IMG/VR virus record: IMGVR_UViG_3300023296_001171
Span: 1-26,866 of that record
DNA: 26,866 bases
Source: a virus
Strand: one strand, 5' to 3'
In this document: positions 2,819-19,397 of the stretch, piece after piece
Layout: each line of letters opens with the position of its first letter
Numbering within the stretch: the first letter of the stretch is position 1
Notes under the pieces: model-generated
The model's input: the letters and a program-made list of their open reading frames with translations, nothing else
The model's database searches: none
Told to the model about the DNA's origin: nothing
Position numbers and translations under genes: made by a program

Positions 2819-5609
2819 TATCGCATTGGGTGTAATGCTGAGTTCGTCGATGGGTGGTATTGCCGCAGGCGGGATGTTCGGTATCGCCTCGCTTACCGGC
2901 GCGGCCGTCGGCGGGATGCTCGGTGCCTCCATCGGCGGCATGATCGACAACGCCTTCCTCATGCCCGCCATCTTCGGGACGCCCCACCAGAGCACGTCCG
3001 GCCCACGCCTCGAATCCCTCAAGGTGAACGGATTTAATGAGGGCGAGCCCATGCCGTACTACATCGGCCCTTGGAATCGCGGCGGCTGTTTCCTGTTCTA
3101 CATCAGCAATCTTAAAGAGGTGAAGCAGAAAACTTCATCCGGTGGTGGTGGTGGCAAGGGTGGCGGCGGCGGCGGGGGTTCCACATCGATCTCATACAGC
3201 TACTTCGTGGATATCGCGGTTGGTATCGGTGACGCTTGGCAGGACGGGGCGCACAGCAGCTACACGAGGCTGTGGGGCGACGCCAAAGAAATCCTCGTTA
3301 ATAACGAGAAGATCCATATTCAATCGGTGAAGCTGCGTATCGTGAAACGTAAGAAGCTGCTTCTCCTGCGGTCGCCCCCCGGTGGCCCCGACCTGCGCAA
3401 ACTCAAGCCCGGCGTCCGTGCGACGCTCGCCGGTTGGGATAACGCCGAGAACAACGGCGAGTTCCGGCTGCGGGCCACAAAGAAGTTTGCCGGAAGCGGT
3501 ACCACGCAGGCACGCTTCGGCAACCCCGCCAATGACACCGTGACCGAGAAGCCCGGGAACTTCACGACGGTGGACATGGAGCTACCGGAGGACGAGAACC
3601 AGCGGGCCGAAAGCATCACGTTCTTTGATGGGAAGTCCGATCAGGAGCCGTGGTCCATCATGCAGGCAAAGAAGGGCGCAACGAGTACCCCGGCCTACCG
3701 TGGCACCGCCTACATCGGCGTCGAGCAGCTTGCGATTGCCGACTACGGCAACCGCGTTCCCAACTTCACGGTTGAGCCCCGCGTCAAAGCCGTGGAGACA
3801 ATCGCCGGGGCACTTGAGAAGCTGTTTGACCGCGCGGAACTCCCCAACGCCACGTACCTCGACACGCGGCGGGTGCGGGGCCGTATGCTCGGCATCACGG
3901 CGGCGGGCCTGCAGGACACACGCTCCCTCGTGGTCCCGCTTATGCAGGCGCACAACCTCCGGGCCCGCGTCAGCAACGGCAAGGTAATCATGTTCGAACG
4001 GGGCAACGAGGACCGGATGGCCGTACCCGAGGCCGACCTCGGCGGGAACATCGGGGACACGGCACCGGGCGAGCCCTTCGGGGTCCACCGGTACTCCAGC
4101 CGGTCACTGCCGGACGAGGTGGCCCTGAGCTACATCGACCGGAACCGGGGGTATCAGCGGGCCACGGTGTCGGCGCGTAATGCGCTGGCGGTTACCACCA
4201 ACAAGGAGGAGGTTTCCTTCCCCGTGACCCTGACCTCGGTTCAGGCGGTGCGGGCCGCAGAGTATATGGTCTATTCGCGGACCGCCGAGCAGAACGAGGT
4301 TACTTTTAAGCTGCCCCCGTCGTACCTCGATATTGAGGAAACCGATGTCTTGGACGTGACGTTTGCGGGCATCGTGTATCCGGTGCGTGTCACGAACGTG
4401 ACCCGGGGCGCTAACGACGTGATCGAATGCAAGGGCATCATCCAAGGCGATGACATCGTGGACCTGCAGGACGACTGCTTCGGGTCGGACGAGGGCGACC
4501 CGCCGGAAACCCCGACGCCATACTACCCGCCCCCGCTTCAGCTTTACATCCTCGACATCCCCGCACTCAAGCCCCTGCACGTGCGCACGCCCGGCTTCTA
4601 CGTGGCGGTTGCGGCGGAGGACCCCACGGTTGACTTCCGGGGATGCGGCGTCATGGGCAGCACGAACAACACCACGTTTAATCAGTTCATGACTATCGGC
4701 ACCGAGACAACGATGGGCGAGGTGGAGGTTCCCCTGACCGGCACGGAGGACCTCGCAAACACGTGGGACGAGGTGAGCGAGGTTTATGTGACGATGCTCG
4801 CGGGCGAGCTTGAAAGCCACACGGAGGACGAGGTGCTCGCCGGGTTTAATGTGGCGATGATTGGCAACGAGATTGTGGCGTTCAAGAACGCGGTCCTGCA
4901 GGACACGGGGGTTTATCTTCTCACCGGTTTGATGCGGGGCCTGCGTGACACGTTCCACGAAATCACCACACACGTGGAGGACGAACGGTTTATTCTGCTG
5001 TCCGACGACTCGCTCACGTGGGTGGAGAAGCCGTTTTCCGCGATCGGTCAGGAGCGATACTTCAAGGCCGTACCCACCAGCGCGCTTGAAACAGACTTCG
5101 ACTCGTTCTACGGGTTCAACAACACGGTTACCACGCCGGACCCCTCACCGCCGAGCCCGACGCTTACCTCCTACAAGGCGAACACGCTGCGGGCGTTCGC
5201 GCCGTCGGGCGTGTACGTGAACTACGACGCGGGCGGCAACGCGAACATTGGCTGGACCTACACGAGCCGGGAACTCACCTCGTCCGTGGTCGCCGGTGGT
5301 ACCGGGTTCGTCGGGAACCAGAATCAGGAGGATTACGAGATCGACGTTTACGACGACGCCGGGCTCGTGTTTCACCGCACCATTGCCGTGGCGGGCAGTC
5401 CGAACACGAACGCCGACGACACCAACGGCTCGGTTGTTACACTCACGGGCAACGGCACGGGCGGCACCGCGATTTATAAGGCGGTAGATCAGGCTGCGGA
5501 CATCCTCGCCAACGGCGGATCGTCCGCACAGGGTGGGCCCTTCCTGTACCGGTACTTTGAACTCACCCCCAACTACGGGCGGGGCAACTACAGGGACCTG
5601 ACAGAATGA
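2811..5609 (+). CDS. Tail-tip / host-specificity protein (J-like, phage-tail_3 type; GTA gp15-like)
   Basis: 932 residues from the GTG start. Residues 1-45 are a Gly/Ala/Met-rich hydrophobic segment ending in IGGMIDNAF, as in many J-like tail-tip proteins. Residues 109-125 are a glycine-rich linker followed by SYSYFVDIAVGIG, also typical. Residues about 325-545 look like the hub (phage-tail_3) region: VETIAGALEKLFDRAEL, RGRMLGIT, VIMFERGNED, then LPPSYLDIEETDVLDVTF. The rest is beta-rich with a Pro-rich hinge at 565-575 and probably forms fibronectin-like or receptor-facing domains. It closes the tail tube and is likely to contact the host envelope. It is expressed with the peptidase (8-base overlap) and coupled to the next gene through ATGA at 5606-5609. 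Confidence 0.88.
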   Translation: MASIALGVMLSSSMGGIAAGGMFGIASLTGAAVGGMLGASIGGMIDNAFLMPAIFGTPHQSTSGPRLESLKVNGFNEGEPMPYYIGPWNRGGCFLFYISNLKEVKQKTSSGGGGGKGGGGGGGSTSISYSYFVDIAVGIGDAWQDGAHSSYTRLWGDAKEILVNNEKIHIQSVKLRIVKRKKLLLLRSPPGGPDLRKLKPGVRATLAGWDNAENNGEFRLRATKKFAGSGTTQARFGNPANDTVTEKPGNFTTVDMELPEDENQRAESITFFDGKSDQEPWSIMQAKKGATSTPAYRGTAYIGVEQLAIADYGNRVPNFTVEPRVKAVETIAGALEKLFDRAELPNATYLDTRRVRGRMLGITAAGLQDTRSLVVPLMQAHNLRARVSNGKVIMFERGNEDRMAVPEADLGGNIGDTAPGEPFGVHRYSSRSLPDEVALSYIDRNRGYQRATVSARNALAVTTNKEEVSFPVTLTSVQAVRAAEYMVYSRTAEQNEVTFKLPPSYLDIEETDVLDVTFAGIVYPVRVTNVTRGANDVIECKGIIQGDDIVDLQDDCFGSDEGDPPETPTPYYPPPLQLYILDIPALKPLHVRTPGFYVAVAAEDPTVDFRGCGVMGSTNNTTFNQFMTIGTETTMGEVEVPLTGTEDLANTWDEVSEVYVTMLAGELESHTEDEVLAGFNVAMIGNEIVAFKNAVLQDTGVYLLTGLMRGLRDTFHEITTHVEDERFILLSDDSLTWVEKPFSAIGQERYFKAVPTSALETDFDSFYGFNNTVTTPDPSPPSPTLTSYKANTLRAFAPSGVYVNYDAGGNANIGWTYTSRELTSSVVAGGTGFVGNQNQEDYEIDVYDDAGLVFHRTIAVAGSPNTNADDTNGSVVTLTGNGTGGTAIYKAVDQAADILANGGSSAQGGPFLYRYFELTPNYGRGNYRDLTE

Positions 5610-6610: not shown

Positions 6611-7723
6611 ATGGCAACTTTTTACGCACACCCATCAGCAGCACAAGGCACCGGCACAGGTATCAGTGAGGCTAATGCGGCTACGCTTAAACAGTGCATC
6701 GAGAATGACGGCGGTCTTCACACCGCACTCGTGTCCGGTAGCGTTATTCATTGCATAGCCGGGTCCGTTTCTTTTGATGGTAGTGCTGGTGATTTTGCAA
6801 CAACGGCCATCGTTGGCACTTGGCAAGACCCTATCAGGGTACTCACTTACACTACGACCGCAGGTGACGGGTTGGGTATCGTAGAAATCACAGACTCCAA
6901 TCTAGGTGCGACCAACGATGCACTCGTCATCTCGCTCGACTACTGGACGTTCAGAGGCTTTAAGTTTCTTACACCGCGATCAGGTGTGTCGATCAGTACG
7001 GGTGCCGACGGTATCAACTTGATCGACATCGAAGTGGACTCCGCTGCGAGTTACGGGTTCGAGGAAAACGCTTCGACAGGGACCAGCACGGCCTACATCA
7101 GTTGCTACGCACACGATTGTACAAGCGACGGATTTTATAGTGGTGCCCGATCTAATAGATACTTTGATTGTGTGTCTATCAACAACACTAACGGGTTCAA
7201 TATCCGCAATACCGCATACGGCTGTACGGCGGTTGGCTGCATCGCGGTAGGTAATTCAGGCACAGGCTTCATCTCCCAAACAGAGGGTCACATCGTTAAT
7301 TGTGCTTTTGTCAACAACGGGTCATCGGGGTTTGTTGCATCCAACGCGATCCATCAAACTTTGATTAACACAATCTGTGGTGACAATACTGATTATGGCT
7401 TGTCGGGTAACTACGCCAATACGACTATGTTTGCTATCAACTGCAACATAGCACCCGCGAATCATCTGAACGGCTTAGGGGCGATCAGCACAAACGTCGA
7501 TCTAGTAGAAATCCTGCCCCGAACCGACGACCCACTGTGGGTTGACCCTGATCCTGCCGACAACAATGATGTTGATCTAACCCCAGGCATTGGCAGCGGC
7601 CTAGTAGCAGATTCGCTCAAGCTCGGAGGCACAGGCTTTGCCGGGCTATCGTACAAAGACCTTGGACCCATTCAACGCCGCGATCTCGGGTACGGTGCCA
7701 TGTACGCAGGAATGCACATTTAA
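6611..7723 (+). CDS. Tailspike-like right-handed beta-helix protein
   Basis: 370 residues, preceded by AAGGA at 6597-6601. The central part (about residues 100-290) is a series of short repeats with regularly spaced N, D, C and G residues, such as ISCYAHDCTSDGFYS, FDCVSINNTNGFNI, TAVGCIAVGNSGTGF and IVNCAFVNNGSSGF. This is the rung pattern of right-handed parallel beta-helices (pectate-lyase-like fold) found in phage tailspikes that bind or cut surface polysaccharide. The N-terminus (TFYAHPSAAQGTGTGISEAN) resembles the first turn of such proteins. I cannot point to catalytic residues, so binding without cleavage is possible. Base composition is clearly lower in GC than in the genes before 5990 and after 9190, suggesting a horizontally swapped module. 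Confidence 0.75.
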   Translation: MATFYAHPSAAQGTGTGISEANAATLKQCIENDGGLHTALVSGSVIHCIAGSVSFDGSAGDFATTAIVGTWQDPIRVLTYTTTAGDGLGIVEITDSNLGATNDALVISLDYWTFRGFKFLTPRSGVSISTGADGINLIDIEVDSAASYGFEENASTGTSTAYISCYAHDCTSDGFYSGARSNRYFDCVSINNTNGFNIRNTAYGCTAVGCIAVGNSGTGFISQTEGHIVNCAFVNNGSSGFVASNAIHQTLINTICGDNTDYGLSGNYANTTMFAINCNIAPANHLNGLGAISTNVDLVEILPRTDDPLWVDPDPADNNDVDLTPGIGSGLVADSLKLGGTGFAGLSYKDLGPIQRRDLGYGAMYAGMHI

Positions 7724-12626: not shown

Positions 12627-12991
12627 GCTACACCCCCAAACTTTACGGCCGCGTCAAGCGGTACGAACGGCGGCGCGCTGCGCGGGGGACGAGGATCGCG
12701 GCGATTCGTGGCCTCGCCCGGTACGCCCGGGTGATTAAGCACAGCCTTGAACGCCCCCACGGTGCGGCACCCGAATGGCGGTTCACCTACACGCGGGCGC
12801 GGGTACCCTTCGGGGGTGCGGGGGTAGTGCTCGACTCGCTCACCCTCAAGGGCGTGTCGGTGTATGGGGTGGCCGCGACGATCATAAGGACGCTGCACGA
12901 CCCGACTGACCCCAAGCTGGAACGCATTGGTCTGGTGACACCCATCCTCGCAAATCAGTCGCTTAGTATTATCGAGGGGACACCGGTTTGA
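12623..12991 (+). CDS. Basic protein of unknown function, TTG start
   Basis: 122 residues from TTG 12623; GGGAGG at 12610-12615 is 7 bases upstream. The frame is open further back to an ATG at 12449, but that codon lies in the T run of the terminator and has no SD, so I prefer the TTG. Residues 1-50 are very basic (KRYERRRAARGTRIAAIRGL), suggesting nucleic acid contact. The remainder has FGGAGVVLDSLTLKGVSVYG and a C-terminal hydrophobic segment. Both ends are coupled by TTGA overlaps, upstream with the 31-residue peptide and downstream with the helicase at 12988. I do not recognise the family. Confidence 0.6.
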   Translation: MSYTPKLYGRVKRYERRRAARGTRIAAIRGLARYARVIKHSLERPHGAAPEWRFTYTRARVPFGGAGVVLDSLTLKGVSVYGVAATIIRTLHDPTDPKLERIGLVTPILANQSLSIIEGTPV

Positions 12992-14370
12992 CTACATGGG
13001 CCCCACTAATCCACCAAGGCGGCGGGCTGCGGATCATGGGGACTCGCCCACGGTACGCTTGGTTCTGGCAACCGGGCACGGGGAAAACGCTGCTTAATCT
13101 ATTCCGTCAGCAGGCCCGGCCGTTGCGCACGCTGGTGTTGGCGCAGAAGTCTATCATTCACACGGCTTGGGTGGACGATGCCTCCAAGCTGGACATGCCC
13201 ATTGTCGTGGCCCGCCACAAAAACAGGGCCAAGCGGATCGAACTCATCCGCGCACCGGGCGACCACGTGCTCGTTACGAACTATGAGCAGTTCCGAAACC
13301 ACGCCCGCGAGTTTATGGACAGCGGCATCGAACGGCTCGTTGTGGACGAGTCCGGCAAGGTCAAGAACCGGGAGACAAAAACCTTTCAGTCCGTGGTGCA
13401 GCTTGCCGACCGGTGCAAGGAGGTATATATCCTCAACGGCACGCCCGCGCCGAACTGCTACACGGAACTCTGGGCGCAGCTTCGCGTGGTGTCGCCGGAC
13501 GCCGTGGGCCGCGACTTTTACAAATGGGCATATCACTGGTTCACGCCCCGCTACGATTGGGTGCGGAATAAGCGGGTGGTCGCCGGGTGGACGCTCAAGC
13601 CCGACCGCGAGGAGGCGTTCTTTGAATCGGTGGCCCTGTGGTCGTCAACGCTTCGCAAGTCCGACTGCGGGGACCTTCCCGAGCAGACCGATCAGGTGCG
13701 GAAGTTCACGCTGTCCAAGCCGGAACGCGACGCCTACAACGGCGTGGCGGACGAGCTAACGATCGCCCTGCCCACGACGTTCGGCGGGTCGAGCAGGGTG
13801 TCGATTCAGGCGGCGGGCGTGATGATGAAGCTGCGGCAGATTTCCGGCGGGTCCATCCTCATGGAGGGCCGGGCCCACGTGCTCGGCAACTCGAAGCTGG
13901 CCGAACTGAAATCCGTCTTTGAGGAATACGGCCGGGACCCGATGGTTATTTGGGCGGAGTTTACGGCGGACATCGACCGGATCGCCGGGGCCGTCCGCGA
14001 GTTCTACGGCTGCGATGCGGCGGTGATCGACGGCCGGACCAAGCGGGAGATCGGGGATATCGTCAAGGACTTTCAGCGGGGGCTTATCCACAAGATTATT
14101 GCCCACCCCGCCTCGGCCGGTCATGGCACCGACGGGCTTCAGGATGTCTGTAAGTGCGCCCTGTACTATGGCCTGTCGTACTCCTCCGACCAGCACAACC
14201 AGAGCCGGGACCGTATCCACCGCACCGGGCAGAAGAATCCCTGCACGTATATCTACCTGATTGCGGAGGACACGCTGGACGAGGTACTATACCCCGTCGT
14301 TCATGGGAAGATGAAAATTCAGGAGGGTATGCTTAAGGAGCTAAACCGGATCAACTCAAAACGCCGATAG
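12988..14370 (+). CDS. SNF2-family (SF2) DNA helicase/translocase
   Basis: 460 residues from TTG 12988, which overlaps the upstream TGA as TTGA; AGGGGA lies just before. Motifs of a Swi2/Snf2-type ATPase are clear. Walker A is QPGTGKT (K33), the Walker B variant is VVDESGKVKN (D120, E121; the S-G-K-x-K-N form is typical of phage SNF2 proteins), motif III is ILNGTPAPN, and motif VI is QSRDRIHRTGQK (residues 405-416, arginine fingers R409 and R412). Such proteins move on duplex DNA and in phages are thought to aid replication restart or recombination. The length is close to a minimal two-lobe core with no extra domain. It lies directly before the primase-helicase gene, as in many phage replication operons. 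Confidence 0.93.
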   Translation: MTTWAPLIHQGGGLRIMGTRPRYAWFWQPGTGKTLLNLFRQQARPLRTLVLAQKSIIHTAWVDDASKLDMPIVVARHKNRAKRIELIRAPGDHVLVTNYEQFRNHAREFMDSGIERLVVDESGKVKNRETKTFQSVVQLADRCKEVYILNGTPAPNCYTELWAQLRVVSPDAVGRDFYKWAYHWFTPRYDWVRNKRVVAGWTLKPDREEAFFESVALWSSTLRKSDCGDLPEQTDQVRKFTLSKPERDAYNGVADELTIALPTTFGGSSRVSIQAAGVMMKLRQISGGSILMEGRAHVLGNSKLAELKSVFEEYGRDPMVIWAEFTADIDRIAGAVREFYGCDAAVIDGRTKREIGDIVKDFQRGLIHKIIAHPASAGHGTDGLQDVCKCALYYGLSYSSDQHNQSRDRIHRTGQKNPCTYIYLIAEDTLDEVLYPVVHGKMKIQEGMLKELNRINSKRR

Positions 14371-17393: not shown

Positions 17394-17428
17394 AAGCCCC
17401 CTCCGGATGCGCCCGGAGGGGGCTTTTT
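17394..17428 (+). terminator. Strong Rho-independent terminator after the primase-helicase
   Basis: GCCCCCTCCGG (17396-17406) pairs perfectly with CCGGAGGGGGC (17413-17423) around a 6-base loop. The flanking AA/TT extends the stem to 13 pairs, and a T5 run follows at 17424-17428. It ends the rightward replication operon. Confidence 0.92.
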
Positions 17429-17474: not shown

Positions 17475-17512
17475 AGTTCGGTGCCCACGTTTGAGTTCGG
17501 TGCCCACGTTTG
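17475..17512 (+). repeat. Two perfect tandem 19-base repeats containing the GGTGCCCAC iteron
   Basis: The unit AGTTCGGTGCCCACGTTTG occupies 17475-17493 and 17494-17512 with no change. The 19-base period puts equivalent bases slightly under two helical turns apart, so a protein could bind side by side. Two head-to-tail reverse-complement copies follow at 17521-17538. Confidence 0.9.
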
Positions 17513-17540
17513 GCCTCAATGTGGGCACCGTGGGCACCCT

Positions 17541-17574
17541 GTGGGGACCGTACTTTTTTGGGTACGGTGCCCAC
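17541..17574. repeat. Imperfect 13-base inverted repeat with T-rich loop
   Basis: GTGGGGACCGTAC (17541-17553) faces GTACGGTGCCCAC (17562-17574) with one mismatch, separated by an 8-base loop with six T. It pairs two iteron copies in a hairpin-forming arrangement, which would suit an origin, an operator or a cruciform. Confidence 0.75.
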
Positions 17575-17843
17575 ACTTAACCCCCGCCTTTTCTCGGTAC
17601 TTATAACCATACCTCAAGGGTGTGGGGACCGTGGGAACCCAACTGTATTCTTGCTGAAGAAATGTGACTTTTGTAAGTGTCGATTGGGGGCTGATAGTGG
17701 GGATTAGTAAGATAGGGGGGTAAGAACACTTTACCTGCGCTGGTTGGCCCCCAGAGAATCAGGAGTTGATTTTACGGTGCCCACACCCCCCCCCCGGACA
17801 CCTAACATCCGGCGGGACCGCGACACCGCCGGATTAAGGGACC

Positions 17844-17904: not shown

Positions 17905-18888
17905 ATGCAGAAAAAGAATCGGTTAAGTCTATCCGTCCCGATCACGTTCCTCCAACGGCTACACCTCATCTATTCGACCTCGGGATTCGTGCAGGTGGGG
18001 GACGGCCACCCCCTCAAGGGTATCTACAACCGAAAAACGCCCACGCGGTACCGGCTCGCGATGCCGTACCTGCTGACGTGGGCCCTGACCGGATCGGAGG
18101 ACCGGCTGCACCGGTGGGCCGAACTCGACAAGCCCAAAACCAACCCGGAGCGTGCCGCCGTGCACTTCTCCCTCCCCGCGCCGATGGTCGAACGGGTAAA
18201 CGAAATCTCCCGGGGCATGGCGGCGGACTACAAAAACAACTCGCACCGCGCATTCCCGTGGTATGTTTTCTCGCGGATGGTGGTGGCGTACCTCAACGAG
18301 AAGATGGTGCCGATTGAGTACCACCACCAGACCCACCCCCGCGAGCTTCAGGGCACGCCGGTGGATGAGTTCACGGTGGTGGGCCTGCCCACCGCCGACT
18401 GGCGGATCGCCGACGGCGGGATTAAGGGCCTGCAGAAGAGGGTGTGGATGACGTTGCTCGAGATGGCGCACCGCCGGAACCTTTGGATCGCGGCGCACCC
18501 CGCCTGTCCGAAGGACCTCCGCGCACGCTTCCGGGCACACGCCACGATTCAGGGCACGCGGATCACCGCACAAAGCTACCGCGAGGAACTGGCGGCGCGG
18601 TCCGTGGGCGCGGGGCGCACCGAGGCGAACCACGTACCGATTGAGACACGACGCGAGGCGCGGGGGTTCTGGAGCGCGGCCCCGACCGAGAACGAAATCC
18701 GCACGCGGCTGGAGGAGTCCGGGGACAGTCGCTGGCTCGATGCCCGGGGCATCTACGCGCAGCGGTGCCCGTGCCCGGTGCCGACGTGGGAAAAAGACAC
18801 GACGAAGAAGCCCGCACCTAAAAAAGAAACCACAACCCAAAGCCTCGATGAGGTATTTCAGGAGTACTCCGGCAATGCAACCGCCTAA
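17905..18888 (+). CDS. Unrecognised protein beside the iteron region; possible DNA-binding protein
   Basis: 327 residues from ATG 17905, chosen because GGAG (17892-17895) lies 9 bases upstream; ATGs at 17890 and 17896 lack a site. Two segments have the strand-then-helix look of ribbon-helix-helix proteins: NRLSLSVPITFLQRLHLIY (residues 5-23) and AAVHFSLPAPMVERVNEISR (about residues 84-103). The middle is helical and basic. The C-terminus has KDTTKKPAPKKETTTQS followed by an acidic helix. I see no catalytic motif. Its position next to a cluster of short repeats suggests an initiator or repressor that binds them, but this is inference. It overlaps the next gene by 14 bases. Confidence 0.7.
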   Translation: MQKKNRLSLSVPITFLQRLHLIYSTSGFVQVGDGHPLKGIYNRKTPTRYRLAMPYLLTWALTGSEDRLHRWAELDKPKTNPERAAVHFSLPAPMVERVNEISRGMAADYKNNSHRAFPWYVFSRMVVAYLNEKMVPIEYHHQTHPRELQGTPVDEFTVVGLPTADWRIADGGIKGLQKRVWMTLLEMAHRRNLWIAAHPACPKDLRARFRAHATIQGTRITAQSYREELAARSVGAGRTEANHVPIETRREARGFWSAAPTENEIRTRLEESGDSRWLDARGIYAQRCPCPVPTWEKDTTKKPAPKKETTTQSLDEVFQEYSGNATA

Positions 18889-19336
18889 ACCACACACACG
18901 CGACGACCTCGAAACCCTCAACAAGATGCTGACCCGGGCGCTTGACCGCACGCTGCCGGAGGGCGACGCGGTAAGGGCGGGCACCGAGGCGGTTATCAAA
19001 ATGCGCCTGCACGGGATCCGCATCGAGGCCCTCATTGCCACGGAGATGGGCACCAAGGCGGACGGCGACCCGGCATCCGGCGAGTCCGGCTCCTTCCCCG
19101 TGGACCGACCGCACGACGACCCGGGCCTCGTGGTGATGCCCTTCGGCAAGTACAAGGGGCGGGCGCTGGCGAATATCGCCGAAAACGACCCGGAATATAT
19201 CGGGTGGCTCGCCAACGACGCCACCATTGAGAACTCCCGCGTGGCCGAGGCGGTGGAGGCGGTGTACGTCCGGCTGCACCTATCGGACGGCCTCCTTACA
19301 CAATCTGACAAAGATTCCGGGCCCGACGGTAAATAG
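18875..19336 (+). CDS. Protein with ExoX-C-like / DUF3820-type domain
   Basis: 153 residues from ATG 18875 (GGAG at 18861-18864). The frame is open much further upstream, but that part overlaps the previous gene and has shadow-like composition. Residues 1-85 are helical and then low-complexity (DGDPASGESGS). From residue 88 the text VMPFGKYKGRALANIA followed by DPEYIGWL matches the small domain found at the C-terminus of exonuclease X-like proteins and in DUF3820 proteins. This domain is thought to bind nucleic acid or position a nuclease. Here it stands without a nuclease domain. The neighbouring helicase suggests a helper role in recombination or replication. It is the last gene before the promoter at 19340. 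Confidence 0.75.
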   Translation: MQPPKPHTRDDLETLNKMLTRALDRTLPEGDAVRAGTEAVIKMRLHGIRIEALIATEMGTKADGDPASGESGSFPVDRPHDDPGLVVMPFGKYKGRALANIAENDPEYIGWLANDATIENSRVAEAVEAVYVRLHLSDGLLTQSDKDSGPDGK

Positions 19337-19339
19337 GTG

Positions 19340-19368
19340 TTGACGCGGGGGTCAATCGCCGATATGTT
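19340..19368 (+). promoter_or_regulatory. Sigma70-like promoter with inverted repeat over the -35 box
   Basis: TTGACG at 19340-19345, 17-base spacer, TATGTT at 19363-19368. TTGAC (19340-19344) and GTCAA (19351-19355) form a perfect inverted repeat separated by 6 bases. The 30 bases from 19340 are almost identical (28 matches) to those from 25883. It drives the helicase gene at 19398, with a leader of about 25 bases. Confidence 0.75.
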
Positions 19369-19379
19369 CATCGGGAACA
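19365..19379. promoter_or_regulatory. Inverted repeat at the predicted transcription start
   Basis: TGTTC (19365-19369) and GAACA (19375-19379) are separated by 5 bases. The repeat overlaps the end of the -10 box and the expected +1, matching the placement of palindromes at the promoters at 10836 and 25883. Confidence 0.35.
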
Positions 19380-19397
19380 CAAGCCAAGGAGTACGTC

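Follow-up and report, generated by a model that had tools for sequence, protein, structure and literature searches.

SaPIs, PICIs and SCC elements have their origin iterons directly downstream of rep, where the C-terminal domain of Rep or Cch2 binds them, and the PICI origin comprises two iteron sets around an AT-rich stretch (PMC7581432, PMC6092414). In the GenBank record of P4, the alpha gene is followed by the t-alpha terminator and by crr, which holds ten type I repeats (TGTTCACC and close variants) in both orientations and at 9-bp steps. The essential 3' element of pRN1 has been described as a stem-loop and explicitly not as iterons; no specific binding to it was seen, and a symmetry-restoring change rescued one mutant (PMC4234260).

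The window analysed here, a 26,866-bp stretch of viral DNA (IMG/VR record IMGVR_UViG_3300023296_001171), has a comparable arrangement 3' of a primase-helicase gene. Its source is a tailed phage and not a satellite, because tail assembly, tail and minor head genes are present at the left of the contig. The genes further downstream of the locus encode a Dda/RecD-like helicase, a methyltransferase, an HNH protein and a PolA-type polymerase, and no integrase, ParA-type gene or O/P homologue was recognised among the scanned ORFs of the window. The features of the locus are as follows.

12988–14370, + strand: gene for an SNF2-type helicase, directly upstream of the primase-helicase gene and conserved in the relatives L071, L072 and L112
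14434–17346, + strand: gene for a primase-helicase of 970 aa, assigned by a PHROG DNA helicase match, AEP homology and conserved motifs
17394–17428, + strand: intrinsic-terminator-like hairpin of the primase-helicase operon; arms of 13 bp, perfectly paired, and T5
17475–17493 and 17494–17512, + strand: 19-bp perfect tandem repeat AGTTCGGTGCCCACGTTTG, holding iterons 1 and 2 (17480–17488 and 17499–17507)
17480 (+), 17499 (+), 17521 (−), 17530 (−), 17566 (+) and 17776 (+): exact copies of the iteron GGTGCCCAC, four forward and two reverse
17541 (−), 17622 (−) and 17631 (−): one-mismatch copies of GGTGCCCAC, bringing the total to nine
17521–17549, − strand: three reverse iterons at 9- and 11-bp steps (17521 and 17530 exact, 17541 with one mismatch)
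17566–17574, + strand: exact iteron
17575–17621: spacer between iterons, 53% AT, a possible melting site
17622–17639, − strand: two reverse one-mismatch iterons, GGTCCCCAC and GGTTCCCAC, at a 9-bp step
17640–17775: 136-bp spacer, 54% AT against 38% for the contig, a possible melting site
17776–17784, + strand: last iteron copy, exact
17905–18888, + strand: orphan protein gene, 327 aa from the ATG at 17905 (341-aa ORF from 17863)

The primase-helicase begins with an AEP/PrimPol domain (approximately residues 60–325), recognised by homology to phage and plasmid primases; this is also the part that the PHROG match covers. It is followed by SF3-like AAA+ helicase motifs (Walker A GMGSGKTETA at about 621–630, LFDN at about 668–671, TFN at 711–713 and Arg724) that are conserved in the full-length relatives L071, L072 and L112, and by a C-terminal domain (approximately 780–950) likewise conserved in relatives. 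A Pfam search of the 970-aa protein returned a weak PriCT_1 match and no helicase, D5 or Pox_D5 match, and a profile search of solved structures gave no match. The AlphaFold model of the helicase and C-terminal part (pLDDT 35) was unusable and too poor to show a winged helix there. In single-protein scans for close relatives, the primase-helicase and the SNF2 protein matched only one near-identical contig (G001/L007, 99.95% identity), and the 341-aa and Dda-like proteins had no close relative.

The initial annotation had described about nine iterons in a non-coding stretch between the primase-helicase terminator and an unrecognised gene, and this description was borne out. The inverted-repeat listing and the sequence place the hairpin arms at 17394–17425 and TTTTT at 17424–17428, upstream of the repeats, although a strict terminator scanner did not report this hairpin; the orphan gene lies downstream. 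Short spurious ORFs aside, the 516-bp gap is non-coding. The first iteron lies about 133 bp past the primase-helicase stop codon, behind the hairpin, and the last about 120 bp ahead of the probable downstream start codon at 17905. Six exact and three one-mismatch copies were counted, in both orientations, including the perfect 19-base tandem repeat and a head-to-tail reverse pair (17521/17530) with a 9-bp step. A whole-record motif scan found all six exact copies within 17480–17784 and none elsewhere in 26.9 kb, including at every other promoter of the contig; a control motif, the reversed but non-complemented GGTGCCCAC, had 0 occurrences in the record. In 2000 dinucleotide shuffles of the gap, the most frequent 8-mer reached at most 4 copies and the most frequent 9-mer at most 3, against 6 observed for both. 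As 0 of 2000 shuffles reproduced six copies, the cluster is not due to chance. The near-identical contig holds the same six exact copies.

The rare AT-rich segments also claimed for the stretch stood in part: 100-bp windows starting at 17590 and 17640 are 54–56% AT, which ranks near the 99th percentile in this contig of 62% G+C, but its most AT-rich stretch is at 7350, away from the iteron gap. A change of GC skew had been proposed as a mark of the origin; skew across the contig shows no switch at the cluster and is uninformative. The gap had no match in Rfam, and a literature search with the letters of GGTGCCCAC yielded only unrelated items among the matches listed. A run of ten C residues (17786–17795) directly follows the last iteron; with differences at 17814 and 17817 in the near-identical contig, this stretch is either variable or error-prone.

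Like the pri-rep-ori segment of PICIs and SaPIs, the window has iterons directly 3' of the gene for its primase-helicase, the likely initiator. Two iteron sets around an AT-rich stretch are clear in L071, L072 and L112, whereas the window is less regular: its iterons form mixed-orientation blocks and not two clean facing ones, and the AT enrichment of its spacers (53–54% against 38%) is moderate. Unlike those satellites, the window belongs to a tailed phage with its own tail genes and a PolA-type polymerase; its likely initiator is an AEP domain fused to an SF3-like helicase that has no Pfam match, and its iteron sequence and number differ. With P4 it shares the order of alpha gene, terminator and crr, 8–9-bp iterons running both ways, 9-bp tandem steps and a fused primase-helicase. 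P4 alpha, however, combines a TOPRIM primase with a D5_N/DUF5906/Pox_D5 helicase, in contrast to the AEP primase and absent D5 Pfam match of the window, and P4 has two iteron sites, 120-bp crr repeats and the iteron TGTTCACC instead of GGTGCCCAC. SCCmec Cch2 offers the same layout of short repeats immediately downstream of a helicase gene, bound by its C-terminal domain, but with only three 5-nt iterons and a separate primase, CCPol-MP. ORF904 of pRN1 likewise joins an AEP domain to an SF3 helicase and has an element just 3' of its gene, in a crenarchaeal host. In lambda-type systems, by contrast, the iterons lie inside the initiator gene O and the helicase is brought in via P; the iterons of the window are intergenic.

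The relatives indicate which neighbouring gene the iterons belong with. L071, L072 and L112, the nearest full-length relatives, share 28% identity with the primase-helicase over about 900 aa, the C-terminal part included, and the SNF2 gene also lies upstream in them (37% identity). Their 3' gaps contain two facing blocks of iterons with a 9-bp period, separated by a spacer of 61–72 bp; the gap reads TGGACGGCTGGGACGGCTGAGACGG, about 61 bp, then TCTCAGCCGTCCCAGCCGTCCA, and L112 keeps this layout with GGACAGC/GCTGTCC, the iteron letters having changed in both blocks. The repeats expected at this locus in relatives are thus present as facing iterons, but their letters are lineage-specific. By inspection, the genes that follow the iterons in the three relatives are unrelated to one another. 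Because the relatives keep their iterons while the following gene changes, the iterons go with the primase-helicase and not with the downstream gene. The initial annotation had evoked an adjacent initiator; for the same reason, that role likely falls to the upstream primase-helicase and not to the unrecognised gene downstream.

This bears on a different reading of the repeats, in which the downstream 341-aa protein uses them as operators or as a partition (centromere) site. The orphan protein has no homologue in phages, viral contigs, Pfam, PHROGs or NCBIfam. Its sequence contains two similar strand-helix-helix segments (NRLSLSVPITFLQRL... and AAVHFSLPAPMVERV...), and the same pattern appears twice in a predicted structure of low confidence, too poor for a fold search, which suggests that it may carry tandem ribbon-helix-helix (RHH)-like units. 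Arrays of short repeats that run both ways are known targets of RHH proteins such as omega or ParG, and the repeats of the window do lie upstream of the 341-aa gene. However, equivalent clusters occur where the downstream genes are unrelated, L071, L072 and L112 among them; the iterons start more than 100 bp past the primase stop and end well short of the probable start codon; the other promoters of the contig have no copy; and there is no ParA-type gene among those recognised in the scanned ORFs. We therefore regard an operator or partition site as decidedly unlikely. The orphan gene lies outside the conserved module, and its RHH-like product is a possible second iteron binder. A 473-aa ORF on the reverse strand (17959–19380), without a Pfam match, overlaps the orphan gene and its neighbour and is probably a shadow ORF of high-GC DNA.

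Phages and plasmids with distantly related AEP proteins were identified by tblastn. Deinococcus p_5 and Caenibius p1 have 10 and 12 copies, respectively, of an 8-mer that differs from that of the window, in both orientations, in the gap that adjoins the AEP gene on its 3' side; both replicons were deposited as circular plasmids yet have terminase genes, and are phage-plasmids. These repeats led us to a systematic survey of AEP loci. Alignment of the AEP domain retrieved 80 viral (IMG/VR) and 80 genomic (GTDB) loci, and the 154 homologues with a reading frame that stops within the locus were analysed; once short or truncated genes had been discarded, 128 genes remained, in 43 lineages (single linkage, 45% identity). 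A locus was called positive when one 8-mer had at least 4 exact copies in the scored stretch. Within 500 bp 3' of the gene, 18 of the 43 lineages were positive; the 5' side gave 1 of 43, and of 3682 background windows 114 were positive. Among the 28 lineages with proteins of 600–1000 aa, 14 were positive in the bin 0–300 bp 3' of the gene, and at most 1 of 28 (0–4%) in any other 300-bp bin from −2400 to +2700, with 0 of 28 on the 5' side. All 14 discordant lineages favoured the 3' side over the 5' side (14 to 0; sign test, p = 1.2e-4, an approximate value as the lineages are not fully independent and several have deep shared ancestry). When the gaps of 21 representatives were shuffled 200 times each, no trial reached the observed count in 20 of the gaps, and a single trial (1 of 200) did so for L089. 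In the k-mer test applied to the lineages, P4 had 5 copies 3' of alpha and 2 on the 5' side.

The cluster is not universal in this gene class. Half of the 28 shorter-protein lineages had no detectable exact-repeat cluster, and none of the 15 long lineages, mostly cyanobacterial and plasmid-type, had one on the 3' side. BPP-1 shows that AEP phages, too, may lack one: its 3' region has no repeat cluster. Two plasmid loci have repeats in other positions. In the Anabaena plasmid pANA03, 9 copies of GGTCAACA(A) fall within 400 bp (approximately 5131–5400), inside the 3' part of a DUF3987 primase gene, possibly an origin within the gene. In pAACI03 (3530–3830), at least 6 copies of TGTAAAGG, running both ways, precede rather than follow a P4-family primase gene.

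Where clusters were found, the iteron letters are lineage-specific (AGGTTGGACA, GAAGGCAA, TAGGAACA, GTGGGAACA, CGTCCGCC, TATGGACAC, ACCGTTAC, AGTGGGTGC, CTTCCGCA, CCTGCAACA and others). The iterons usually occur in both orientations, often as two facing blocks, and neighbours of the same orientation are most often 9 bp apart and commonly 8–13 bp. The largest spacers are more AT-rich than their locus in about 16 of 20 representatives, intergenic DNA being generally AT-rich anyway. The helicase partner of the AEP domain also varies: D5/DUF5906 (SF3), VapE-like, AAA_25, or unclassified as in the window. Across these helicase classes the C-terminal domains have mostly no detectable relationship, with matches only between D5a and D5b and between two AAA_25 groups. 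A single common iteron-binding C-terminal domain is thus unsupported, the matches being confined to related groups. Covariation did not localise the iteron-reading domain, since iteron identity in the VapE-type group tracks the overall protein phylogeny, and an ancestral iteron core over 19 lineages (GTGYCCA-like) was weak, with 1 of 60 shuffles as good.

The survey also informs a reading in which the locus is an origin of the stem-loop (cruciform) kind proposed for pRN1 and BIP-1, with a structure rather than repeated sites being recognised. The 100-bp element 3' of orf904 is required in pRN1, and the rescue by restored symmetry and the unseen specific binding fit such a structure (PMC4234260); L071, too, could form a large stem. 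A large stem is, however, impossible where the copies have nearly one orientation, namely in the cultured Rhizobium phage RHph_N65 (11 of 12), L062 (11 of 12) and L208 (5 of 5), and the window has tandem direct copies. In RHph_N65, twelve copies of GCGGAGAT at 4700–4896 lie directly 3' of the primase/helicase gene. The pRN1 stem is itself made of paired units: from 5030 onward, at offsets 56–150 past orf904, each arm contains two TGGACA units 9 bp apart, facing across the loop. These pairs resemble the iterons of the viral contigs L089 (TATGGACA) and L083 (AGGTTGGACA/GGTTGGACA). A stem-loop origin is accordingly a very improbable account of the window.

Repeats of similar letters do occur in another context. 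A scan of viral contigs for the iteron pattern returned 44 stretches; most of the inspected ones were coding repeats or unrelated. The exception was L036 (IMGVR_UViG_3300002461_000269), where GGTGCCCACA/GATGCCCACA-like sites in both orientations (approximately 863–1250) lie immediately ahead of a gene whose translation, judged by eye, resembles a tyrosine integrase; these are probably integrase arm sites. This contig, together with the attP arm repeats that adjoin crr in P4, lends some weight to reading the window cluster as arm-type sites of a tyrosine integrase at attP. Since the window has no recognised integrase gene, and since, across lineages, both the letters and the place of the iterons go with the primase-helicase, we give this reading almost no credence.

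A further possibility is that the primase-helicase does bind the cluster, but as an auxiliary cis element or copy-control array, the true origin being elsewhere. The type I iterons of P4 are found both at ori and at crr, about 4.5 kb from each other, and the contig is incomplete, leaving room for a second site. Against this, 26.9 kb hold no other exact copy, and the origin of PICIs is the 3' iteron region itself (PMC6092414). An auxiliary role thus appears unlikely.

We consider it quite probable that the cluster is the replication origin of the phage, or its initiator-binding core, fired through the iterons by the upstream primase-helicase. This origin reading follows from the match of position, repeat geometry and gap AT-richness to the PICI pri-rep-ori segment and P4 crr, and from the recurrence of equivalent clusters 3' of this gene class in many lineages; the candidate origin tied to a PrimPol-type system that the initial annotation had put forward gains support from both comparisons. 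By analogy with SaPI Rep, Cch2 and P4 alpha, which point to the C-terminal domain, the primase-helicase is most likely the iteron binder. From sequence comparison we infer the origin role, the binder, the melting spacer and an order of events as follows. Primase-helicase molecules would bind the nine 9-bp iterons, most likely by their C-terminal domain, and would assemble as facing helicase rings. These rings would melt the AT-richer spacer between the iteron blocks, after which the N-terminal AEP domain would prime DNA synthesis and the phage's own PolA-type polymerase would extend the primers.

The locus in the window, judged from its sequence, is well supported as one more origin of the PICI/P4-type 3' iteron layout. 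What is new is the breadth of this layout, which AEP primase-helicases with a variety of helicase motors share across tailed phages and phage-plasmids; it looks like a common, largely overlooked origin type in many unrelated phages. Uncultured phages and phage-plasmids commonly carry AEP primase-helicase genes, the replication origins of which are mostly unknown, and the survey provides a simple rule for finding these origins: to seek 8–9-bp repeats within 300 bp past the end of the primase-helicase gene. Positive loci in the cultured RHph_N65 and in natural phage-plasmids make the origin idea directly testable. The occurrence of one origin layout with different helicase motors raises the questions of how it operates with each motor and of which domain reads such fast-changing iterons. 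On balance we favour the view that the 3' iteron origin is a general and rapidly diversifying class in phages, prophages and phage-plasmids, served by AEP primases with at least three helicase types (D5/SF3, VapE-like and AAA_25) as well as the unclassified type of the window, that it may include the 'stem-loop' of pRN1, and that each lineage evolves its iteron together with its primase-helicase.
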